From an uncultured Bacilli bacterium (lineage in GTDB: Bacteria > Bacillota_I > Bacilli_A > RF39 > UBA660), in contig CASPWD010000002.1 of assembly GCA_949425635.1 (NCBI GenBank), positions 1-64,000 on the forward strand: a stretch of DNA of 64,000 bases, given 5' to 3'. Each line of letters begins with the position of its first letter. The first letter of the stretch is position 1. The translations under genes and the position numbers were made by a program. Below the pieces are notes generated by a model. That model was not told the DNA's origin. It did not search any database and saw only the letters and a program-made list of their open reading frames with translations. Positions 23,611 to 61,279 of this stretch are shown one piece after another.

Positions 23611-23691
23611 ACTTTGTAGACACCAATTCTTTTATTTTTCTTTCCATAATTTTTCTAAAGTGCTATGATAAGTTGGAAAGGGCGGATAAAT

Positions 23692-24381
23692 ATGAATATT
23701 CTAGTTGTGGATGATGAAACTGCTATCGCCGATTTAATTAGCATCTATTTAAAAAACGAAAACTACAACGTCTACAAATATTATTCTAGCCAAGAAGTAT
23801 TAAAAGATTTAGAGAATCTAAAAATAGATTTAGCTATTCTAGATGTCATGATGCCTGATTTAGATGGCTTCTCTCTATGTAATAAAATTCGTGCCAAATA
23901 CAACTTTCCAATCATTTTCGTCACAGCAAAAGTAGAGGATATCGACAAAATAACAGGCCTAACAATTGGCGCCGACGATTATATAACAAAACCATTTCAA
24001 CCATTAGAATTAGTTGCTCGTGTAAAAGCTCAATTACGACGCTACACTGTCTTTAATTCAAGCAGCGAAGCAAGAGAAAACCTAATCGATTTTCGTAACA
24101 TTTCAATCAATAAGGATACCCACGAATTTTATTTTAACGAAGAAAAACTAGAACTAACCCCAATTGAATTTAAAATTGTTTGGTTGCTTTGTGAAAACCG
24201 TGGGACTGTTGTAAAAACCGAAGACCTATTCCAAAATGTTTGGGGGAAAAAATACTTCGAGAGCGATAACAACACCATAATGGTACACATTCGTCATCTT
24301 CGCGAAAAGATGAAAGATACATCCAAAAATCCAAAATACATCAAAACAATATGGGGAGTGGGGTATAAAATTGAAAAATAA
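23692..24381 (+). CDS. vanR: VanR-type response regulator
   Basis: 229 aa. Receiver domain with acidic pair DD (7-8), phospho-acceptor Asp51 in LAILDVMMPD, conserved Lys in ITKPFQPLELVAR; OmpR-type winged helix in the C-terminal half (ELTPIEFKIVWLL, then TIMVHIRHLREKM, WGVGYKIE). ATG 23692 follows AAAGGGCGG; an in-frame ATG at 23665 lies in the TATGAT -10 box. It starts a seven-gene glycopeptide-resistance cluster and overlaps vanS by 11 bases. It probably activates vanW-vanT through repeats before vanW. Confidence 0.9.
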   Translation: MNILVVDDETAIADLISIYLKNENYNVYKYYSSQEVLKDLENLKIDLAILDVMMPDLDGFSLCNKIRAKYNFPIIFVTAKVEDIDKITGLTIGADDYITKPFQPLELVARVKAQLRRYTVFNSSSEARENLIDFRNISINKDTHEFYFNEEKLELTPIEFKIVWLLCENRGTVVKTEDLFQNVWGKKYFESDNNTIMVHIRHLREKMKDTSKNPKYIKTIWGVGYKIEK

Positions 24382-25477
24382 TTTACAAACTAAAACTTTT
24401 CTTTTAACTATATTTAAAATCTTTATCTGGTCAGTTCTTCTTCCTGCAACAACCATTTTCTGCGTCGAAATTATCAATCTTCTAGACTTTAATTGGCTAT
24501 ATCACATATCACCCAATGTATATTATTTCTTTAACAACCTATATAGATTTTTAACATCTAGTATTCTAATGTTTTTACTAATTGTAATCTGGGTCTTCGG
24601 TGTTTGTATGATTTTATATGGCACAATCAAAAAACTTTTTTCTTACATCAACGCTCTTAGTGAAGCTGCCGATAAACTATTTGATAAAGAAAGCGAGTTC
24701 ATTGCACTCCCTCAAGAGTTAGAAGAAGTCCAAGAAAAAATCAATCACTTAAAAAGAGAATCAGAAAAAAATGAACGTCGTGCTATTTTAAATGAACAAC
24801 GAAAAAATGATTTAGTCGTTTACTTAGCCCACGATTTAAAAACACCTCTAACTTCTATGATTGGCTATTTATCTCTTCTGGATGAAATAAAAGATATGCC
24901 TCCTGAATCAAGAGAAAAATATATAAGCATTGCTCTAGAAAAATCATATAAATTAGAAGATCTAATTAATGAATTATTCGATATAACTCGTTTCAATTCA
25001 GAAAAAATAATTCTAGAACGCGAAGATGTAAATCTAAACATGATGTTAGAACAAATAATGGATGATTTCTACCCGGTCTTAAAAGAGAATGACAAAGAAA
25101 TCAAACTTACAAGTAAATCTAAAATTCTCTTAGATGCGGATCCCGATAAATTAGCCCGTGTTTTCAATAACTTAATCAAAAATGCCATCTACTATAGTAC
25201 AGACAAATTAATAACAATAAATGTCACAAAAACAGAAAAAAGTGTTAAAATTATAGTAAGCAACAAAGGTCGTAAGATTCCGCAAGAAAAATTAAATCGC
25301 ATCTTTGAAAAATTCTATCGTGCTGATGCTTCAAGACACCAAGCATCTGGTGGAACAGGCTTGGGCCTTGCAATTGCTAAAGAAATAGTCGAATTACATG
25401 ATGGTACGATAACTGCAACGAGTGATGAATTGCACACAAAATTTACTGTCTTATTGCCCATCAAGAAAATTAAGTAA
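24371..25477 (+). CDS. vanS: VanS-type sensor histidine kinase
   Basis: 368 aa. Two membrane spans (about 10-37 and 62-86) enclose a short outer loop, a HAMP-like linker follows, then HisKA with phospho-acceptor His154 in YLAHDLKTPLTSMIGYLSLL and an ATPase domain with N box (NNLIKNAIYYS), F box (IFEKFYRAD) and G2 box (GGTGLGLAIAKE). The start is TTG 24371 behind GGGGAGTGGGG, inside vanR. The small sensor region suits VanS kinases that sense glycopeptide or wall damage. Confidence 0.9.
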   Translation: MKNNLQTKTFLLTIFKIFIWSVLLPATTIFCVEIINLLDFNWLYHISPNVYYFFNNLYRFLTSSILMFLLIVIWVFGVCMILYGTIKKLFSYINALSEAADKLFDKESEFIALPQELEEVQEKINHLKRESEKNERRAILNEQRKNDLVVYLAHDLKTPLTSMIGYLSLLDEIKDMPPESREKYISIALEKSYKLEDLINELFDITRFNSEKIILEREDVNLNMMLEQIMDDFYPVLKENDKEIKLTSKSKILLDADPDKLARVFNNLIKNAIYYSTDKLITINVTKTEKSVKIIVSNKGRKIPQEKLNRIFEKFYRADASRHQASGGTGLGLAIAKEIVELHDGTITATSDELHTKFTVLLPIKKIK

Positions 25478-25503
25478 ATCTTAAGATTTTTGTAAGATTA
25501 AAT
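25471..25503 (+). promoter_or_regulatory. Three VanR-like direct repeats
   Basis: Three 11-bp units each begin TAAG: TAAGTAAATCT (25471), TAAGATTTTTG (25482) and TAAGATTAAAT (25493). Regular 11-bp spacing is typical of OmpR/PhoB-family sites. They begin inside the vanS stop region and lie just before a promoter with a -10 TACAAT (25529-25534) but no recognisable -35, as expected for an activator-dependent promoter. Confidence 0.6.
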
Positions 25504-25505
25504 TA

Positions 25506-25568
25506 AAAAACAGTCGTAAAAAAGTTGCTACAATCTATTTGTATAACTTGAAGACTGTTTTTCTTTTT
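25506..25568 (+). terminator. Attenuator- or terminator-like hairpin between vanS and vanW
   Basis: Outer stem AAAAACAGTC (25506-25515) with GACTGTTTTT (25553-25562), followed by TCTTTTT. An inner stem TACAA/TTGTA (25529-25543) is possible. It could end vanRS transcripts, leaving vanW-vanT to the activated promoter inside it. Confidence 0.6.
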
Positions 25569-25599
25569 GGAAAAAAGTCACAAATTGAAAGGAAAAAAT

Positions 25600-26427
25600 A
25601 TGAAAAGAAAAAGATTAACTGAATTAATGCCTTTCCTAATACCTATACGTTCTTGGCAAAAAAACTTTTTTTACCAAATAAAAATGCGTTTAGATAAAGC
25701 AACTTATTCAACCAAAGTAGGAGAGCTTTTACCTTTTGTTGTTGCTTCCTCCAGTACCTGTATGATTAACCAAAACAGTGGGCAAGACATAATTTACCAA
25801 GAAAACAAAGTGAATAATCTAAAACTTATAAGTAAAACAATGAATCGTCTTTTAATTAAACCAGGGGAAACTTTTTCTTTCTGTTACTTAGCAGAAAACG
25901 CTCATAAATACGGGAAGTACAAAGACGGTCTAGTTCTTGTAAATGGCGCAATTGTTCCACGTAAAGGAGGCGGCATTTGCCACATTAGTAATCTCTTATA
26001 TTACTTATTCTTACTAACTCCCTTAACCATTGTAGAAAGGCATGGACATGATATTAAGTCCTTCCCAGATCCTGATCCCAATGAACCGATTGGCATTGAT
26101 GCCACAATCAACAGCGGTTGGCTTGATTTAAAAATTCGAAACGACACTAAGGAAACTTATCAAATCTTTATTGATTTTGATGAAACACACATGATAGGCA
26201 AAATTCTTTCGAATAAAGAAACCAACACATCCGCCAGCATCAAAAATGGTCAGGTGAAATATTGCAAGAAAAACAACAAAATATACGAAATAGCCGAAGT
26301 AATAAAAGTATTAAAAGATAAAAAAACAAACGAAATAATAAGTGAAACAAAGCTTTACGACGAAAAAATTGAAATCGCTTATACTTTACCAAAAAACATC
26401 ATAATAATTGAGGAGAAAGAAATATGA
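25600..26427 (+). CDS. vanW: VanW family protein
   Basis: 275 aa. The VanW-family core is plain: KPGETFSFCYLAENAHKYGKYK, the Gly-rich VPRKGGGICHISNLLYYLF, and VERHGHDIKSFPDPDPNEP. VanW accompanies vanB and vanG operons; its biochemical job is not known. ATG 25600 follows AAAGGA; an in-frame TTG at 25567 has no site. It overlaps vanG by four bases (ATGA). First gene behind the VanR-like repeats. Confidence 0.9.
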   Translation: MKRKRLTELMPFLIPIRSWQKNFFYQIKMRLDKATYSTKVGELLPFVVASSSTCMINQNSGQDIIYQENKVNNLKLISKTMNRLLIKPGETFSFCYLAENAHKYGKYKDGLVLVNGAIVPRKGGGICHISNLLYYLFLLTPLTIVERHGHDIKSFPDPDPNEPIGIDATINSGWLDLKIRNDTKETYQIFIDFDETHMIGKILSNKETNTSASIKNGQVKYCKKNNKIYEIAEVIKVLKDKKTNEIISETKLYDEKIEIAYTLPKNIIIIEEKEI

Positions 26428-27467
26428 AAAAAAGAAATGTAGCTATAATTTTTGGAGGATGCTCCAGCGAATACAGTGTCTCGCTAATGTCTGCTACCTC
26501 TGTGATTGAAAATATCAAAAAAGAGAAGTATAACGTAATCTTAGTTGGTATTACTAAAGAAGGAAATTTCAAATTGTATAAGGGTCCAATAGAAAATATT
26601 CCTAACGATACATGGAATCAATCTCAGTATACCGAAAAAGTAACCATATCATGTAATCGAGAAGATCATGGTTTAATTAAACTAGCTTCTCATGAAAAAG
26701 TCCACCTAGACATAGTCTTCCCCGTTCTTCATGGTCGCAACGGGGAAGATGGTCGTTTGCAAGGTCTTCTTGAACTAGCAAACATTCCGTATGTTGGATG
26801 CGAATCCTTATCATCGGCTCTTTGTATGGATAAATATAAAGCCCATGAACTAGTAAGAAATACCAACATTAAAGTTCCTGAATCTTTTATATTTACTCAT
26901 CAAGATTCTTTTGAAAAAATCAAAGAAAAAGTTCAAAATCTTAACTATCCCATCTTTGTAAAACCACTAACATCTGGTTCCTCTTACGGAATAACAAAAG
27001 TAGAAGAAGAAGTCCAGTTACAAGAAGCTGTCACATACGCTTATGAGTTTGATAGTACTATTATTATTGAAGAAGGAATCGATGGCTTCGAAGTTGGCTG
27101 TGCCATTTTAGGTAACGAAAATCCAATAATTGGAGAAGTAGATGAAATAGAACTCCAAGAAGGTTTCTTTGACTTTCAAGAAAAGTACAACTTAATTACA
27201 AGTAAAATCATTCTTCCAGCTCGCATACCTTTAAAAGAGCGTACAAGAATAAAAGAAACAGCTCTAAAAATTTATAAAACTTTAGGCTGCCAAGGTTTCG
27301 CTAGAGTCGATATGTTCTACACCAAAGATGCACAAATAATTTTTAACGAGGTCAATACCATTCCTGGGTTTACATCTCATAGTCGTTATCCAAGTATGCT
27401 AAAAGAAATAGGGTATACCTTCTCTGATATTATCGATAAACTAATTGAATTGGGGCAATCTAGATGA
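26424..27467 (+). CDS. vanG: D-alanine--D-serine ligase, VanG type
   Basis: 347 aa, ATP-grasp. N-terminal GGCSSEYSVS, ATP site (FVKPLTSGSSYGITKV), omega loop FFDFQEKYNLITSKIILPARI (Glu253-Lys254-Tyr255) and metal-binding FNEVNTIPGFTSHSRYP. The EKY-type omega loop with SKI-PARI agrees with the VanC/E/G D-Ala-D-Ser ligases rather than the VanA/B D-Ala-D-Lac type, and the neighbouring vanXY and serine racemase genes agree. The product replaces terminal D-Ala with D-Ser in wall precursors and weakens vancomycin binding. Specificity is inferred. Confidence 0.92.
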   Translation: MKKRNVAIIFGGCSSEYSVSLMSATSVIENIKKEKYNVILVGITKEGNFKLYKGPIENIPNDTWNQSQYTEKVTISCNREDHGLIKLASHEKVHLDIVFPVLHGRNGEDGRLQGLLELANIPYVGCESLSSALCMDKYKAHELVRNTNIKVPESFIFTHQDSFEKIKEKVQNLNYPIFVKPLTSGSSYGITKVEEEVQLQEAVTYAYEFDSTIIIEEGIDGFEVGCAILGNENPIIGEVDEIELQEGFFDFQEKYNLITSKIILPARIPLKERTRIKETALKIYKTLGCQGFARVDMFYTKDAQIIFNEVNTIPGFTSHSRYPSMLKEIGYTFSDIIDKLIELGQSR

Positions 27468-28195
27468 AAAGAATAACTTTAACAGAAAAAGACATGTACA
27501 AAGGAAATCTAATTCTTGTTAACCAATATCACTTAATACATGACCAAGAAATTCAAAATACCTTAGAACCCTTTAATCCTACATTCTCTAATATTCTTTT
27601 CAATAAAAGTGCGAATCGTTTTTTACAATTCATTTTAACTGAGATTTCTGCTCAAGACAAGATTGTTCCTGTAAGTGGCTATCGCAGTTTAGAGGAGCAA
27701 GAAGAGATTTTTAATACCTCATTACAAAACGATGGCTACGAATTTACCTCAAAGTATGTAGCGTTGCCTAATGCCAGCGAACACCAAACAGGTCTGGCTA
27801 TCGACTTAGGCCTAAACTTGCCAGAAATAGATTTTATTAGACCATCTTTTCCTCGTCAAGGTATCTGCAATCAATTCCGTCATATTGCTATAAAAAATGG
27901 TTTCATTGAAAGATACAAAAAAGACAAAGAAGCTATAACTAACATCAGTGCAGAAGAATGGCACTTTAGGTATGTTGGCCACCCTCATGCCAAGATTATG
28001 TCTTTAAAAAATTTCTGCTTAGAAGAATACATTGCATATCTAAAAAATTTTAAAGACACTCCTTTAAAATATGATAGATACGAAATTACTTATCTACCTT
28101 ATCAAGGCCAAGATCGAATACTAGAGGTAGATACTTTTATAGAAATATCTGGTAACAACATAGATGGATTTATCATAACAAGGACTTCTAAATGA
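27464..28195 (+). CDS. vanXY: D,D-peptidase / D,D-carboxypeptidase VanXY
   Basis: 243 aa, close to VanXY-G length. M15 zinc peptidase: SGYRSLEEQ near 71-79, the zinc motif SEHQTGLAID (105-114, His107 and Asp114), and EEWH (164-167) with the catalytic Glu and third zinc His. No signal peptide, so it is cytoplasmic, as in VanC/E/G systems. It removes D-Ala-D-Ala dipeptide and terminal D-Ala, so that only D-Ser-ended precursors remain. It overlaps both neighbours by four bases. Confidence 0.9.
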   Translation: MKRITLTEKDMYKGNLILVNQYHLIHDQEIQNTLEPFNPTFSNILFNKSANRFLQFILTEISAQDKIVPVSGYRSLEEQEEIFNTSLQNDGYEFTSKYVALPNASEHQTGLAIDLGLNLPEIDFIRPSFPRQGICNQFRHIAIKNGFIERYKKDKEAITNISAEEWHFRYVGHPHAKIMSLKNFCLEEYIAYLKNFKDTPLKYDRYEITYLPYQGQDRILEVDTFIEISGNNIDGFIITRTSK

Positions 28196-29187
28196 AAAAG
28201 TCCATCAATTTAGATCAAATACGTTTAATAGCTTCTTTTGCTATAGTAGCCATTCATGTATATCCGTTCGCATCTATAAATGAAACTTTAGATTTCACCC
28301 TAACCAGAATTCTTTTTCGTCTTGCACTTCCTATATTTTTAATGATTACTGGTTATTACTTAATACCATCTTGTATAACAGATAAAACAAAACTAAAGAA
28401 TTACACAAAAAAAATAATAAAGATATACCTAATAGCTATGATTATCTTCCTGCCTATAAACATCTACAGCAAAACTTTTTCTAATGTCTCCTTTTTAAAT
28501 AAAATAAAAGCCATCTTTCTAACGGGAACCATGTACCATTTATGGTATTTTCCAGCTCTTATCCTAGGTATTTGGATTACTTATTATCTAATTAAGTATA
28601 TAAAACATCCTAAATACGCTGTACTTATCTTATATACAATCGGTTTACTAGGAGACTCTTACTATGGCTTTATATCTAACATAAGTATTTTTAATCAATT
28701 ATATTTATGGATCTTTCAAATTTTTGATTACACAAGAAATGGCCTATTTTATGTTCCTATATTCCTTTACATAGGATATAGTATAAAAAAACAAAAACCA
28801 AAAAAACATAAACTAACTGTCTACTTCGCTATTTTTTTTATACTTCTTCTTTTAATTGAAGGTATAATATTATATGGTCTTAATATTCAAAGACATTCTA
28901 GTATGTATATTTTCTTAATACCTAGTGCTTACTATTTATTTGAATTAATACAGTCTTACCAAATCACTCAAAATAAGCAAATTAGAACTATGGGTACTTT
29001 AATATACATCTTACATCCTTTATTTATTATTTTTATTAATAAAATAACCAAAATAATAAATATAGATATTATCAAGCATTCGAGTATACAATACATCTTA
29101 GTACTTATAACAACAACATTTTTTTCATATATCATTTTAAAAATAAAGGAGCTTTATAATCATGCAAGAAAAGAAAAAAATAAATAA
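28192..29187 (+). CDS. vanT: VanT membrane domain (acyltransferase-3-like), separate gene
   Basis: 331 aa with about ten membrane spans. The N-terminus (SINLDQIRLIASFAIVAIHVYP) carries the conserved His of acyltransferase-3 proteins. In VanT-G and VanT-C this domain is fused ahead of the serine racemase and may help D-serine supply. Here it is its own gene, ending 26 bases inside the racemase gene in another frame. Split VanTm/VanTr genes are known from the VanL cluster. Starts by ATGA overlap with vanXY. Confidence 0.85.
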   Translation: MKKSINLDQIRLIASFAIVAIHVYPFASINETLDFTLTRILFRLALPIFLMITGYYLIPSCITDKTKLKNYTKKIIKIYLIAMIIFLPINIYSKTFSNVSFLNKIKAIFLTGTMYHLWYFPALILGIWITYYLIKYIKHPKYAVLILYTIGLLGDSYYGFISNISIFNQLYLWIFQIFDYTRNGLFYVPIFLYIGYSIKKQKPKKHKLTVYFAIFFILLLLIEGIILYGLNIQRHSSMYIFLIPSAYYLFELIQSYQITQNKQIRTMGTLIYILHPLFIIFINKITKIINIDIIKHSSIQYILVLITTTFFSYIILKIKELYNHARKEKNK

Positions 29188-30325
29188 GGAGTCATCCTCT
29201 ATTTTAACAAGTCGTGCTTGGATAGAAGTGAATCTAGCTAATTTAGAGCACAATGTAAATGAAATAAAAAAAGTAATTAACCCAGAAACGAAAATAATGG
29301 CTATTGTTAAAGCCAACGCTTATGGATGTGGCCTAGTCACTATAGCTAAAAAACTAAATGAAATAGGCGTAACTGATTTAGCCGTAGCATCTTTAGAAGA
29401 AGGGATTACCTTAAGACAAAATGGTATTCAAAGTAATATCTTAATATTAGGGTACACAGATATCAATAATATAAACTTAGTAGAAGAATATAATCTTATT
29501 CAAACTTTAGTGGATATCGAGTATGTTGAAAAAATTTCTAAGATATCTTCAATTAATAAGTTGAAAGCTTATATTAAAATTAATACAGGTATGAATAGAA
29601 TAGGTATAAAATCGGATGACATAGAATTTATCAAATCAATTTATGATATAAAAAATATGAAAGTCGAAGGCTTATTTACTCATTTCTGTGTAGCAGATAG
29701 TCTCAAAAAGGAAGACATCGCTTTTAGTGAATATCAAATAAACGAATTTAATAAAGTAGTAAATGCTTTACGTGAAGCTAATATTAATTTTGGTAAGATT
29801 CATATGCAAAATAGTTATGGTATCTTAAATTACAATTATCTTAATTGTGATTATGTAAGACCTGGGATTATAATGTATGGTGCATTAGTAGAAAAAGATA
29901 ATTATCCAAAAGTAAATCTAAATTTAAAACCAGTTTTGTCTTTAAAAGCTAGAGTAGGTAGTGTTAAAACAATAAATAAAGAAGAATCAGTAAGTTATGG
30001 ACGTACTTTCATAGCTGACAAACCTACTAAAATAGCTACACTATGTATTGGCTATGGTGACGGCTATCCAAGATCCATTTCCAATTCGGGAGCTCATGTT
30101 CTAATTAATGGTCATCTTGCGCCTATTGTTGGTCGTATTTGCATGGATCAATTAATGATTGATGTAACAGATATTCCTGATGTGAAACAAGGTGATATTG
30201 CAACCCTTATCGGTAATCAAGAAGAAATAAGTATTGAACAAGTATCTTTATACGCCAACACGATTACTAATGATTTACTATGTCGCCTAGGTCAAAGACT
30301 TGACTATATCTATATTGATGAATGA
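29162..30325 (+). CDS. vanT: VanT racemase domain (serine/alanine racemase), separate gene
   Basis: 387 aa. Alanine-racemase fold: PLP Lys50 in MAIVKANAYGCG, catalytic Tyr279 in VSYGRTF, then CIGYGDGYPR and VGRICMDQLMIDVTD. It should turn L-Ser into D-Ser for the VanG ligase, and might also racemise Ala. Start ATG 29162 has AAGGAG ten bases upstream, within the membrane-domain gene. The first 18 residues are a polar tail, not a membrane span. Last gene of the cluster. Confidence 0.88.
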   Translation: MQEKKKINKESSSILTSRAWIEVNLANLEHNVNEIKKVINPETKIMAIVKANAYGCGLVTIAKKLNEIGVTDLAVASLEEGITLRQNGIQSNILILGYTDINNINLVEEYNLIQTLVDIEYVEKISKISSINKLKAYIKINTGMNRIGIKSDDIEFIKSIYDIKNMKVEGLFTHFCVADSLKKEDIAFSEYQINEFNKVVNALREANINFGKIHMQNSYGILNYNYLNCDYVRPGIIMYGALVEKDNYPKVNLNLKPVLSLKARVGSVKTINKEESVSYGRTFIADKPTKIATLCIGYGDGYPRSISNSGAHVLINGHLAPIVGRICMDQLMIDVTDIPDVKQGDIATLIGNQEEISIEQVSLYANTITNDLLCRLGQRLDYIYIDE

Positions 30326-30388
30326 AATAATATTTTACGATATAAAAAAGAATATAAAAAATAAATAATTTATGTTATAATCAATTTG

Positions 30389-30473
30389 AGGAATAAATCA
30401 TAAAAAAATGATACATTGATTGAAGACAATGATTCCTTTTGTCGCTGAATAGCTAGCTATTCAGAGTTTTTAT
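30389..30473 (+). ncRNA. Small RNA with three-way junction and terminator (putative antitoxin RNA, locus A)
   Basis: An extended -10 (TGtTATAAT, box at 30376-30381) predicts a start near 30388. The RNA can fold with a closing stem AGGAAT (389-394)/ATTCCT (432-437), P1 ATCAT/ATGAT (397-401/408-412), P2 CATTG/CAATG (414-418/427-431), then a terminator stem CTGAATAG... (30445-30464) and five T (last three digits of 30xxx used). It runs toward the small peptide gene on the - strand, and the T run ends at that gene's stop. The same topology recurs at 56.1 kb with other sequences in the stems. Confidence 0.65.
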
Positions 30474-30628
30474 TAACTAAGTAATAAAAATATGATAATG
30501 CCAAGTTGAATAAATATTATCGTAAAATAACATTTTTCTCTCTTTGTCATAATATCAACCCCTTCTCCAAAACCCCCCTGAAGAATTTTGAAGATGAACA
30601 AGGAATGCAATGTACTAATCAATGTATC
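30410..30628. repeat. Inverted repeat enclosing the peptide gene (locus A)
   Basis: GATACATTGATT (30410-30421, inside P2 of the small RNA) and its exact complement (30617-30628). The second copy is the predicted first bases of the peptide mRNA. A read-through mRNA could close end to end. Weaker likeness extends through ATTCCTT in both arms. Confidence 0.65.
30473..30550 (-). CDS. Tiny hydrophobic peptide, type I toxin-like (locus A)
   Basis: 25 aa: basic head MTKREK, then about 18 hydrophobic residues (FTIIFIQLGIIIFLLLS). A strong ribosome site (GGAGAAGGGG, 30559-30568) lies 8 bases before the ATG and can pair with UUCUUC upstream (30580-30585). Promoter on the - strand: TTTACA (30659-30664), 17 bp, TATATT (30636-30641). 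It faces the small RNA at 30389-30473. Size, charge and layout match type I toxins; the sequence is not one I recognise. Confidence 0.6.
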   Translation of the reverse strand: MTKREKCYFTIIFIQLGIIIFLLLS

Positions 30629-30808
30629 AAGTCGTAATATACCAGTAAATTATTCCCCTGTAAATACTAAAATACAAGAAATTTAAACGAATTTCATTTT
30701 GGCTTTTATATTAGTTATAAAAGCTTTTTTTCTGCCTAAAATTCAAGGCAAAATCACAATTTGTTATTTTTAAAAATCATTCCAGCAAAGTAAAAATAAA
30801 TTATTATA

Positions 30809-30864: not shown

Positions 30865-31245
30865 ATGAAATTGATAATAAGTAACAGTAGCCCAGTTCCT
30901 ATATACGAACAAATAAAGAATGCCATAATATCTAACATTATGAATGGTGATCTAGTAGAGGGGGAAGCCCTTCCTTCTATTCGTAATTTAGCAGCTGACA
31001 TTAAGATAAGTATTATGACTATCAAAAAAGCATATGACGAACTAGAAACAGATGGTTACATATCGATTAGACAAGGAAAAGGAGCTTTCGTTGCCCCTAA
31101 AAATATGGAGCTAGCTAAAGAACAAGCTAGAAAAGATATTGAGAATCATCTAAACAAAATTATTGAGATAGCAAACAATTTTAATATTGATTCAAAAGAT
31201 ATCTTAGATTTATATGAATACTTAAGTGGGAGTGAAGAAGAATGA
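30865..31245 (+). CDS. GntR-family regulator, YtrA subfamily
   Basis: 126 aa. Winged helix-turn-helix (PIYEQIKNAIISNIMNGDLVEGEALPSIRNLA, about 11-45, then IMTIKKAYDELETDGYI) and a short helical C-terminus instead of an effector domain, as in YtrA. Such proteins usually repress the ABC transporter encoded beside them. A dyad sits over its promoter. It overlaps the ATPase gene by four bases. Confidence 0.9.
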   Translation: MKLIISNSSPVPIYEQIKNAIISNIMNGDLVEGEALPSIRNLAADIKISIMTIKKAYDELETDGYISIRQGKGAFVAPKNMELAKEQARKDIENHLNKIIEIANNFNIDSKDILDLYEYLSGSEEE

Positions 31246-32105
31246 AAAATGCTATAGAAATAAAAGATTTAACTAAGAAATATGATAATAAATTTGAATT
31301 AGGACCAATTAATTTAAACATACCATCAGGATTTATTATTGGTCTAATTGGTGAAAATGGAGCAGGTAAGACAACTTTAATAAAGTCCTTACTTAGCATC
31401 ATCAAACCTAATAGTGGAACTATAAATATTTGGGGGAAAGACATAAATAAATATGAATCAACTATTAAAGAAGATATCGGAGTAGTTCTAGATGGAATGT
31501 TCTTTCCAGAACTTCTAAATGCCAAAGATTTAAATCTTATAATGAAAGACATTTATAAAAATTGGGATTCAGAACTATATCTAAATTATTTAAGTGAATT
31601 TAAATTATCAAGTGATAAAAAGATAAAAGAACTTTCAAAAGGAATGCGTAAAAAACTAGAAATCGCCGTTGCTTTATCCCATAAACCAAAACTTCTTATT
31701 CTAGATGAACCAACTAGCGGTTTGGATCCTGTAGTTAGAAGTGAAGTTTTAGACATATTCTTAAAATTTATCGAAGATGAAGAACATACTATTCTTTTAT
31801 CGACTCATATTACAAGTGATTTAGAACATATCGCTGATGAAATAATATTTATTGATAAAGGATCTGTCTTACTACAAGAAACTCGTGATAATATTTTAGA
31901 CAATTATGGTATTTTAAAATGTGATATAGAGGACTTCGATAAAATATCTAAAGAAGACATTATCAGGTACAAAAAGCAAAAATACAATTATGAAATTCTT
32001 ACTTATAATAGAGATAAATTATCTAAAAAATATAAAGACTTCGTAATTGATAAAATCACACTTGAAGAACTAATGGTTTTAATGATTAAAGGGAGTGTTA
32101 AATAA
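31242..32105 (+). CDS. ABC transporter ATP-binding protein
   Basis: 287 aa. Walker A GENGAGKTT (about 39-47), signature LSKGMRKKLEIA, Walker B LLILDEPTSGLDP, and the H loop LLSTHIT. The C-terminal 75 residues are an accessory domain common in ABC-2 type exporters. Works with the next gene's permease; resembles the PmtA/YtrB type. Substrate unknown; peptide or antibiotic export is inference. Confidence 0.92.
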   Translation: MKNAIEIKDLTKKYDNKFELGPINLNIPSGFIIGLIGENGAGKTTLIKSLLSIIKPNSGTINIWGKDINKYESTIKEDIGVVLDGMFFPELLNAKDLNLIMKDIYKNWDSELYLNYLSEFKLSSDKKIKELSKGMRKKLEIAVALSHKPKLLILDEPTSGLDPVVRSEVLDIFLKFIEDEEHTILLSTHITSDLEHIADEIIFIDKGSVLLQETRDNILDNYGILKCDIEDFDKISKEDIIRYKKQKYNYEILTYNRDKLSKKYKDFVIDKITLEELMVLMIKGSVK

Positions 32106-32734
32106 TGTTAGGATTAATAAAAAAAGACCTTCTTATGGTCAGAAGTAACTTAAAAATAATCGTTTTAGTTTTACTTGTCTTTGCTTTGATGAGTATGAAC
32201 GGTGAAGGGGACTTATCTTTTGTTGCAGCTTTAATGAGTGTAATGATTTTCATATCAACATTTAGTTACGACGAATACAATAAATTTGATGCCTTTTCTC
32301 TTACTTTTCCAAATGGTCGAAAAAATCTTGTAAAAGCCAAATATCTAGCTAGTTTAATGTTGATACTATTATCAGTTCTATTGACTGTCTTATCCAATTT
32401 AGCAATTGGTTATTTCAAGAACTCTTTAGACCTAGAATACATTTTGGGGACAACAATAGGATGTATATTTGCTTGCATCTTAGTTCAGTCGCTAATATTT
32501 CCATTAATATTTAAATTTGGTATCGAAAAAGGTCGTATAGGTTTATTTGTTTTATCTATTGCTTTCTCCTGTATTATAACGATAATTGCTAAAACAAAAC
32601 CATTTACATTACCAGTAGCAGTTTTAAGCTTTCTTGAAGAAAATTTACTAGTAATTCTTATCATTTCTTCTATAGTTTTACTAATAGTATCTTATCTAAT
32701 TTCAAATAGAGTCTATAAAAATAAAGAGTTTTAA
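32105..32734 (+). CDS. ABC-2 type permease
   Basis: 209 aa, about six membrane spans. Begins MLGLIKKDLLMVRSN and has FSYDEYNKFDAFSLTFPNGRK after the second span, a hallmark of the ABC2_membrane_5 (PmtB-like) permeases. The start shares one base with the stop of the ATPase gene. Last gene of the operon; terminator follows. Confidence 0.88.
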   Translation: MLGLIKKDLLMVRSNLKIIVLVLLVFALMSMNGEGDLSFVAALMSVMIFISTFSYDEYNKFDAFSLTFPNGRKNLVKAKYLASLMLILLSVLLTVLSNLAIGYFKNSLDLEYILGTTIGCIFACILVQSLIFPLIFKFGIEKGRIGLFVLSIAFSCIITIIAKTKPFTLPVAVLSFLEENLLVILIISSIVLLIVSYLISNRVYKNKEF

Positions 32735-56108: not shown

Positions 56109-56226
56109 GAAGGATAGTTATTTATAAAAAAATAACACATTTGATTGGTTTCAAATGCCTTTACAGAGATGGGCACCCGTTTACCTTAACAGCTATTGCC
56201 TTAGCTATTAAATAGGTGCCTTTTTT
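56109..56226 (+). ncRNA. Small RNA with three-way junction and terminator (putative antitoxin RNA, locus B)
   Basis: Fold predicted by eye: closing stem GAAGG (56109-56113) with CCTTT (56158-56162), P1 GTTATT/AATAAC (56117-56122/56131-56136), P2 CATTTGA/TCAAATG (56138-56144/56151-56157), then a long terminator GGCACC...GGTGCC (56172-56220) with an inner AGCTA/TAGCT stem and six T. The order, one-base P1-P2 joint and zero-base P2-closing joint match locus A while stem sequences differ. Confidence 0.65.
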
Positions 56227-56389
56227 AGTGCTTAATGACTAAAATCAATATTACTATTATAAGTAATGTTATGATTATAAAGAAAAACTTTTCCTTTTTT
56301 GTGATACTTATCCATTCTTATTGTAAATTAACATTGCCTCCCCAAGAGGTTAATCTTTATCACGTAAGGGCACCTAAAATCAAATGTGT
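56135..56389. repeat. Inverted repeat enclosing the peptide gene (locus B)
   Basis: ACACATTTGATT (56135-56146, inside the small RNA) and its exact complement at 56378-56389, which is the predicted 5' end of the - strand mRNA. Same placing as in locus A. Confidence 0.65.
56225..56315 (-). pseudogene. Damaged copy of the tiny hydrophobic peptide gene (locus B)
   Basis: A - strand frame reads TKKEK then about 20 hydrophobic residues (FFFIIITLLIIVILILVIKH), alignable with the locus A peptide. It has no ATG in frame: the matching codon is ATC (56303-56305). An ATG at 56313-56315 would join it if the A6 run were one A shorter. Promoter TTTACA (56419-56424), 17 bp, TATAAT (56396-56401). A GGGGAGG site lies too far upstream (56337-56343). 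Probably inactive, unless the run is misread or slips. Confidence 0.5.
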
Positions 56390-59302: not shown

Positions 59303-61279
59303 ATGGAAAATCAAAATGACAATAAATATTTAGGAGAAGGCAAAATTTCTAAATTACTTTTAAAATTCTCTATTCCATGTATATTGTCTCTACTTATTAG
59401 TTCCCTATACAATATAGTAGACCAGATATTCATTGGAAATAGTAGTATTGGTTATTTAGGAAATGCTGCCACAGGAATAGTATTCCCAATAACAATCATC
59501 TCTGTTGCATTTGCATGGTGCTTCGGTGATGGTTCTGCGGCTTATCTTTCACTATGTCAAGGTAGGGGAGATACCAAAAGCGCTCATAAAGCCATAGGAA
59601 ATAGTTTAGTTGTTACATTCATAATAAGCATTATCTTCGTAATATTAGGTTTTATTTTTATGGATAACTTGCTATACCTATTTGGTGCAAGCGAAGCTAG
59701 TATTGGACTTGCTCGTGCTTATTTCACAATCATTCTAACATTTATCCCTGTATATATGTTGGCAAATGCAATGAACGCTGTAATAAGAGCAGATGGTTCA
59801 CCTGCTTTCTCAATGGCATCTACATTAGTTGGAGCAATCATCAATATCATCTTAGACCCAATCTTCATCTTTGTATGTAAATGGGGAATCGAAGGAGCAG
59901 CATGGGCAACAATCATTGGACAATGTGCTTCATTAATCCTATCAATCATTTACTACACTAGAACAAAAACATTCAAATTAAGTTTAGAAAGTTTCAAAAT
60001 GGACTTTGGTGTATTTAGTAACGTTATCAAACTAGGTGTTTCAACATTTATAACTCAAATGTCAATTGTTATCATCTCATTAGTATGTAACATTATGTTA
60101 GCTAAATATGGTGCAGAATCAGTTTATGGAGCAGATATTCCAATCGCTGTTATTGGTATCGCTATGAAAGTATTTACAATAGTAATTAATATCGTTGTAG
60201 GTATCATTCTAGGTGCGCAACCAATCTTAGGTTACAACTATGGAGCTAAGAAATTAGATAGGGTTAAAGAAACATTCAAGATAGTTTTAATTTCTACAAT
60301 CATCGTTGGTTTAATCTCAACAGTAGTATTCGAATTGTTCCCAAGTTTTGTAATCGGCTTATTCGGAGCACAAGATGAACTTTATATGGAGTTTGCAGTT
60401 CTTACATTTAGAATATTTTTAATGTTTGTTACATTAACTTGTACAATCAAAATGTGTTCTATTTTCTTCCAAGCAGTTGGAAAACCAATTAACGCAGCAA
60501 TCGTTTCATTAGCAAGAGATATTATTTTCTTTGTTCCTTTAGTTATTATTTTACCTAACTTTATGGGAGTAAAAGGAGCCTTATGGGCTGCTCCAATAGC
60601 AGACGTAATTGGTATTATTGTAACTATAATCTTACTAGTAGTATTCTTTAAGAGTCTTAATAAAGAAGCTCTACCAGTTAAATCTGAAAAAACTTCTATC
60701 CAAAAATCTCATGCAGGAGTTATCATTACAATTGCAAGAGAACATGGTTCTCAAGGTAAGGAAATTGGTAAACTAGTAGCAGAAACTTTAAACATTCCAT
60801 ATTACTACAAAGAATTAACTGCAATAGCAGCAGAAGAAAGCGGACTTGATAAAGAATTCGTTTCTAAATTAAATGATAACAAAAATAAAGCACATGATTT
60901 ATATTTAACTACATCACCAGTAAGTTTTGCTATCGAAGCACAAGCAAAAGTACTAAAGAAAATCGCTAAAGAAGGCTCTTGCGTAATAGTAGGACGTGCA
61001 GCAGATTATGTACTAAGAGATAACAAAAATATAGTAAGAATATTTATCTATGCAAACGAAGATTATCGTGCTAAAAATGTTATAAAAATGTATGGTGACA
61101 CAGAAGAACAAGCTTATAAAAATATAGCTAAATCAGATAAGAATAGAGCAGGTTACTATAAGATGGTTTCTGGTCAAAAATGGGGTGAAGTTAAAAACTA
61201 CGATTTATGTATTGACTCATCTATTGGCAAAGAAGAAACTGCAGAGGTCATCGTAGATTACATGAATAAACTCAAATAA
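59303..61279 (+). CDS. MATE efflux transporter fused to a cytidylate-kinase-like domain
   Basis: 658 aa. Residues 1-450 are a twelve-span MATE transporter (LLISSLYNIVDQIFIGN, AVIRADGSPAFSMAS, GAQPILGYNYGA, IFFQAVGKPINAA). After a short linker, residues about 470-658 form a cytidylate-kinase-like domain (ITIAREHGSQGKEIGKLVAE, CVIVGRAADYVL, NRAGYYKMVSG), with the family's Gly-rich GSxGxEIG in place of a classic Walker A. The frame is open throughout with one start and AGGAGGAGG site, so the fusion looks real. A short attenuator-like leader precedes it. Cargo and the kinase part's role unknown. Confidence 0.9.
   Translation: MENQNDNKYLGEGKISKLLLKFSIPCILSLLISSLYNIVDQIFIGNSSIGYLGNAATGIVFPITIISVAFAWCFGDGSAAYLSLCQGRGDTKSAHKAIGNSLVVTFIISIIFVILGFIFMDNLLYLFGASEASIGLARAYFTIILTFIPVYMLANAMNAVIRADGSPAFSMASTLVGAIINIILDPIFIFVCKWGIEGAAWATIIGQCASLILSIIYYTRTKTFKLSLESFKMDFGVFSNVIKLGVSTFITQMSIVIISLVCNIMLAKYGAESVYGADIPIAVIGIAMKVFTIVINIVVGIILGAQPILGYNYGAKKLDRVKETFKIVLISTIIVGLISTVVFELFPSFVIGLFGAQDELYMEFAVLTFRIFLMFVTLTCTIKMCSIFFQAVGKPINAAIVSLARDIIFFVPLVIILPNFMGVKGALWAAPIADVIGIIVTIILLVVFFKSLNKEALPVKSEKTSIQKSHAGVIITIAREHGSQGKEIGKLVAETLNIPYYYKELTAIAAEESGLDKEFVSKLNDNKNKAHDLYLTTSPVSFAIEAQAKVLKKIAKEGSCVIVGRAADYVLRDNKNIVRIFIYANEDYRAKNVIKMYGDTEEQAYKNIAKSDKNRAGYYKMVSGQKWGEVKNYDLCIDSSIGKEETAEVIVDYMNKLK

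Follow-up and report, generated by a model that had tools for sequence, protein, structure and literature searches.

The window analyzed here, the first 64,000 nucleotides (forward strand) of contig CASPWD010000002.1 from an uncultured Bacilli bacterium of the RF39 lineage (assembly GCA_949425635.1), carries at 30389-30664 a minus-strand gene for a 25-codon hydrophobic peptide and, running toward it on the plus strand, a gene for a small RNA. An earlier reading of the sequence, the original prediction, took the two for a type I toxin-antitoxin pair, in which an antisense RNA silences a tiny hydrophobic toxin; inspection of the sequence confirms the arrangement, and we call the partners toxin and antitoxin in anticipation of the argument below. 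The features of the locus, which with the antitoxin promoter spans 30373-30664, are as follows.

30473-30550, minus strand: toxin-like peptide gene, 25 codons plus TAA (coding 30550-30476, stop 30475-30473); product MTKREKCYFTIIFIQLGIIIFLLLS
30559-30564, minus strand: ribosome binding site AAGGGG, read from the sequence, 8 nt 5′ of the ATG
30636-30664, minus strand: putative toxin promoter TTTACA-N17-TATATT, from a promoter scan; relatives keep the spacing from -10 box to (G)GATACA
30602-30628, minus strand: 5′ arm of the toxin mRNA, GATACATTGATTAGTACATTGCATTCC, which nearly repeats antitoxin sequence and is complementary to the 3′ arm of the same mRNA
30563-30594 (ends approximate), minus strand: toxin leader hairpin CTTCAAAATTCTTC/GGGGTTTTGGAG, from predicted folds, just upstream of and overlapping the ribosome binding site
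30410-30436, minus strand: 3′ arm of the toxin mRNA, GGAATCATTGTCTTCAATCAATGTATC, predicted to pair with the 5′ arm at -25.6 kcal/mol
30403-30409, minus strand: T-run past the 3′ arm, the probable 3′ end of the toxin mRNA, read from the sequence; TGTATC(A/C)TTTTTT recurs in relatives
30373-30381, plus strand: antitoxin promoter, extended -10 TGTTATAAT, found by eye
30389-30474, plus strand: antitoxin RNA of ~85 nt, aligning over its full length with the family, with an invariant AAAnA..GATACATT core
30445-30474 (stem 30445-30464), plus strand: antitoxin terminator CTGAATAGCTAGCTATTCAG and T-run, from a terminator scan, ending at the toxin stop codon

How much of this exceeds what AT-rich DNA yields by chance? 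The basic head and hydrophobic tail of the peptide, its ribosome binding site and the extended -10 of the small RNA are all present as first described, and the T-run terminator that ends at the stop codon is above expectation (1 found versus 0.1 expected). The toxin promoter fared less evenly: the scan does find TTTACA-N17-TATATT and relatives keep the spacing, but promoter-like matches are no commoner at the locus than in shuffles (6 versus 5.6 expected), so that the match alone proves nothing. What lifts the locus above chance is that the arrangement of peptide, promoter spacing, antitoxin and terminator is kept in paralogues and in dozens of genera. In clade after clade the toxin mRNA appears to start at (G)GATACA, 7-9 nt past the -10 box (~30628-30630 in the window, at the GATACA repeat), and the antitoxin lies wholly beyond the toxin stop codon, opposite the mRNA 3′ end, so the two RNAs would overlap at their convergent 3′ ends. 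The original prediction missed two features taken up below: the complementarity between the 5′ and 3′ ends of the mRNA, and a second copy of the locus in the window.

The locus has many relatives. A search of the same genome with 371 bases returned paralogous pieces, each a convergent small RNA with a tiny hydrophobic peptide, and a search seeded with one paralogue returned more copies from the genome and others from different genera of the same taxonomic family. A covariance model finds 20 matches in the genome at E up to 1, of which at least 16 can be read as a pair or an antitoxin remnant and 2 are chance by inspection; the window antitoxin scores 40.8 bits (E = 0.0011), its sequence having itself been in the model. 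Across 296 genomes of the class, 21 have a match at E ≤ 0.001, 20 of them within the family and one in another, where the candidate peptide resembles subfamily members found elsewhere. Exact-match patterns find the antitoxin core in 69/386 genomes and 46/150 genera of the taxonomic family (reversed control, 0) and the toxin start in 50 genomes of 35 genera (control, 0). Some genomes hold 7-17 copies. Among the matches listed, the named records of true members are metagenome-assembled genomes of uncultured Bacilli, Tenericutes or Erysipelotrichaceae, many from animal guts to judge by sample names; we infer that they belong to the GTDB order RF39. Antitoxin-pattern matches read in Flavobacterium, Pseudobutyrivibrio, Parabacteroides, Peptostreptococcus, Vallitalea and others, as well as in viral contigs (L192-L195, L197), are chance hits without toxin or terminator, mostly inside coding sequence; many weak nucleotide matches in the genus search are AT-rich noise, and the family was not found in the plasmid and phage collections. 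By its sequence, then, the locus belongs, as one copy among many, to a large and hitherto unnamed family of loci from uncultured gut Bacilli.

Copies also cluster. Eleven adjacent pairs in 127 loci lie <700 bp apart, and at L105 (4835-5819, a triple), L278 and L266 two or three copies, complete or partial, stand in tandem at distances of 350-475 bp. The second copy in the window has a toxin frame that is probably decayed.

56112-56225, plus strand: second antitoxin copy, a covariance-model match (E = 0.0115), then read
56225-56311, minus strand: its toxin frame, (ATA)SITKKEKFFFIIITLLIIVILILVIKH, with ATA in place of ATG

Elsewhere in the genome (L329, C9:11680-11773) an antitoxin-like RNA occurs without a toxin gene.

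The peptide frame, whose conservation in related genomes was one of the touchstones of the original prediction, is conserved. From 72 distinct 25-codon genes come 52 distinct peptides with a ratio of nonsynonymous to synonymous polymorphism (pN/pS) of 0.29, K3-R4-E5 being partly fixed by the filter, and on this measure the peptide is under purifying selection. Family peptides are 24-30 residues long, with a basic head and a hydrophobic core, in keeping with the small hydrophobic toxins of type I systems, which have <60 residues, a membrane segment and charged ends; the common form is MTKRE[FLI]S[QL]FIIILLLF[FL][VI]VI[TI]LL[FL][KR]. A C-terminal K or R closes 70/72 members of this MTKRE clade, while the window copy, whose relatives begin MTKRE or MSKRE, ends in S. 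Peptides of the same genome fall into diverged groups (e.g., MRKREIIDKIIIFALLSVIFILLLTR and MSSLESFFKNIIILILLGVIILLILGF); the window's group includes MERVINRLFIVVFIQLGLIITLIVAILLK and MNKIERKLFTIVYIQLGIIIALIIEILLK, and the copies on C4 and C7 have the same F/YIQLGxII core. Other genomes encode, among others, MKLKTFILKVLRLVAIILFLLIIMIVVIKK and MTKKDFLIFSLIILVFLLVLLLFIVLI; peptides like MKLKTFILKVLRLVAIILFLLIIMIVVIKK sit on the same antitoxin scaffold at L315, L317 and L318, one of these candidates being in a different taxonomic family. The original prediction recognized no peptide family here, and none emerges from Pfam, NCBIfam, PHROGs, PADLOC or PDB, although family models such as those of Pfam and NCBIfam cope poorly with very short proteins; Rfam, at gathering and at permissive thresholds, likewise gives nothing credible at the locus. 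In many MTKRE-clade genes a small hairpin, AGAGAnnnnTCTCT, recurs at codons 4-8, possibly as one element of translation control.

The second feature that had gone unremarked concerns the ends of the toxin mRNA. Opposite the antitoxin, the mRNA finishes in TGTATC and the T-run. Because the 5′ arm closely repeats the antitoxin, it is also complementary to the 3′ arm of the molecule that carries it. For cognate arms the mean pairing energy is -31.2 kcal/mol versus -8.7 for shuffled ones (standard deviation 2.7), the end stem of this panhandle has a standard pair in 99.8% of the cells scored, and nearly all variation preserves pairing. The strong evidence for the panhandle, as far as sequences can supply it, is the cognate test among diverged copies: in 17 from the same genome, cognate arms reach -27.9 versus -20.4 for non-cognate ones, and 0/50000 permutations do as well. 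In the C7 copy and the second window copy (56112) the arms are largely rewritten yet complementary, those of the latter still pairing at -28.6. The full-length mRNA is predicted to be closed (mean probability 0.98 over 100 mRNAs), and in 98/101 mRNAs the 5′ arm is predicted to be able to form a local hairpin. RNAalifold, given the full mRNA alignment, recovers the end stem alone because diverged copies misalign; a hand-written structure was counted and the cognate-arm permutation used instead.

Taken together, the locus is very probably a type I-like toxin-antitoxin pair, a reading for which the comparative data (conserved frame, purifying selection and the asymmetric toxin loss described below) argue strongly. 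The antitoxin has its own predicted promoter and terminator and is complementary to the toxin mRNA, as expected of a type I antitoxin. In the proposed mechanism, the minus-strand mRNA would encode a 25-residue membrane peptide, basic at its head and hydrophobic in its body and probably poisonous to the cell that makes it. This mRNA would start at GATACA, end just past the reverse complement TGTATC and a U-run, and close into a panhandle, with the ribosome binding site held in leader and coding-region hairpins and translation presumably silent. The convergent ~85-nt RNA, at once a perfect complement of the mRNA 3′ end and a near-copy of its 5′ arm, would take the place of the 5′ arm on the 3′ arm and give a long duplex with the mRNA (predicted at -164 kcal/mol in the window versus -62 and -17 for the RNAs alone), in which the ribosome binding site is predicted to stay paired in leader and coding hairpins and which would most likely be destroyed by RNase III. 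We take decay to be the chief effect of the antitoxin and the panhandle to be an additional lock, because in B. subtilis txpA/RatA, bsrG/SR4, bsrE/SR5 and yonT/SR6 are established to act through 3′ overlap and degradation by RNase III (PMC5848175).

Several points weigh against this reading. The pair is known from sequence and predicted folding, and both pattern censuses used exact matches on loci that are related to each other. When removal of the 3′ arm was tested by folding, the ribosome binding site did not open (unpaired 0.19 in the full mRNA versus 0.16 in the truncated one), so the models do not support a hok/aapA-style activation step. Within the MTKRE clade few base pairs of the panhandle stems have truly changed on both sides, and gene conversion between inverted arms could also keep the arms matched.

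If the peptide is poisonous without its RNA, the toxin should be lost while the antitoxin is kept, and never the reverse; the family provides dozens of natural toxin-loss events that serve as a genetic test. Among 83 toxins with enough downstream DNA, 81 carry an antitoxin core that scores above any shuffled control and the other two (L201, L231) a diverged antitoxin recognized by eye. From the antitoxin side, 28/131 are without an intact toxin: everything up to the terminator has been replaced, promoter and start are missing, the frame is shifted or stopped early, or the ATG is lost. One of these, L148, starts with GTG and is possibly intact. Without it, 27/131 toxin-less antitoxins stand against 0/83 antitoxin-less toxins (Fisher p = 7e-7; p = 4e-5 if 20/131 are taken), p-values that serve as a guide only, since the loci are not independent and the patterns exact. 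It is this asymmetry that bears on the best-surviving alternative, a harmless small membrane peptide (e.g., a regulator of a membrane complex) tuned by antisense RNA. Hydrophobic 25-residue single-helix peptides do serve as regulatory small proteins, and purifying selection fits any function; but the peptide is often lost with the antisense RNA kept, many diverged peptides share one RNA scaffold and some genomes carry the 7-17 copies noted above, all of which makes this alternative unlikely. Antitoxin-only type I loci are known: orz is one in E. coli, in >30% of genomes (PMC11264685).

The original prediction also suggested that the pair might stabilize the neighboring vancomycin resistance region. 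The pair does lie directly behind a vanG-type operon, an R-S-W-G-XY-T cluster (23665-30325) in which VanT is encoded by two genes, one for the membrane part (28192-29187) and one for the catalytic part (29162-30325). This operon was itself probably acquired, since the best match of the catalytic subunit, a racemase, in 14 other genomes of the genus is a distant one (38%). However, the genome holds ~15 other credible copies at other places, and the pair occurs across the genera of the family without regard to van genes, a distribution that already suggests separate travel. The family is thus present independently of van, and nothing ties the window copy to van maintenance; we regard an addiction module for this region as very improbable. 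Least probable of all, by a small step, is a short dispersed element with peptide and RNA as by-products: scattered copies and tandem arrays would suit it, but pN/pS of 0.29, the conservation of promoters, ribosome sites and terminators, and the complementarity of cognate arms point to function, and plasmid and phage collections yielded no member, the viral-contig matches that were read being chance.

How does the pair compare with known type I systems? The closest in outline is aapA/IsoA of Helicobacter pylori, a multi-copy chromosomal family with a ~30-residue peptide, a ~80-nt antisense RNA, a 5′-3′ closed mRNA and, like hok, transient 5′ hairpins (PMC6733600). There the antisense RNA lies opposite the small ORF, here beyond the stop codon and opposite the mRNA 3′ end; IsoA-type RNA does not bind the closed full-length mRNA (PMC6733600). 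In addition, the antitoxin here contains a copy of the mRNA 5′ arm, and the peptides are unrelated by sequence as far as tested. As in txpA/RatA, the antisense RNA of the window locus and its relatives converges on the toxin mRNA and overlaps it at the mRNA 3′ end; BsrG and YonT peptides of that group, however, have 38-58 residues versus 24-30 here, and no Pfam or NCBIfam model matches the window peptide, such models being weak on very short proteins. To our knowledge, none of the toxin leaders of txpA/RatA, bsrG/SR4, bsrE/SR5 or yonT/SR6 has been described as carrying the antitoxin sequence as an inverted repeat. The hok mRNA is likewise closed 5′ to 3′ (a prediction here) and has a 5′ metastable hairpin, but Sok is complementary to the hok 5′ leader, the antitoxin here to the 3′ end, and Hok has ~50 residues. 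The fst/RNAII (par) system has convergent RNAs and repeats common to toxin leader and antitoxin gene. In par these repeats are direct, so both RNAs pair through them. The inverted repeats seen here instead give the two RNAs an identical stretch, whose pairing partner is the 3′ arm of the mRNA itself, and NCBIfam and Pfam show no match of the window peptide to the Fst family. Antitoxin-only loci are also common for zor/orz of Escherichia coli (PMC11264685), which differs in its trans-encoded, divergent arrangement and unrelated peptide.

The new point, on present sequence evidence, would be the combination: an mRNA whose 5′ end repeats the antitoxin and complements its own 3′ end, so that it should close on itself as in hok and aapA, with an antitoxin that covers the 3′ arm, as in txpA/RatA. 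A fuller proposal, to which we give slightly less than an even chance, is that of a self-locking mRNA whose antitoxin duplicates the 5′ arm and works on the 3′ arm through strand displacement, a scaffold that uncultured gut Bacilli would have reused for at least five diverged sets of membrane peptides and whose antitoxin-only remnants perhaps guard against sibling toxins. Type I systems have mostly been found through homology with a handful of model families, beyond which little is known of them (PMC12390103); the open literature, subscription papers and preprints aside, yielded nothing on such systems in RF39-like bacteria or on such a repeat architecture. The gain is an unnamed multi-copy family in uncultured gut Bacilli with small genomes, and a repeat architecture simple enough that the 5′-3′ lock of the toxin mRNA and the competition by the antitoxin are directly testable.

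Two other parts of the window deserve mention. Beside the toxin promoter, at 30865-32734, lie a GntR-type regulator and an ABC transporter that resemble PmtR/PmtA modulin-export genes (below curated cut-offs), and at 59303-61279 a MatE transporter and a cytidylate-kinase-like domain are fused in a single gene.
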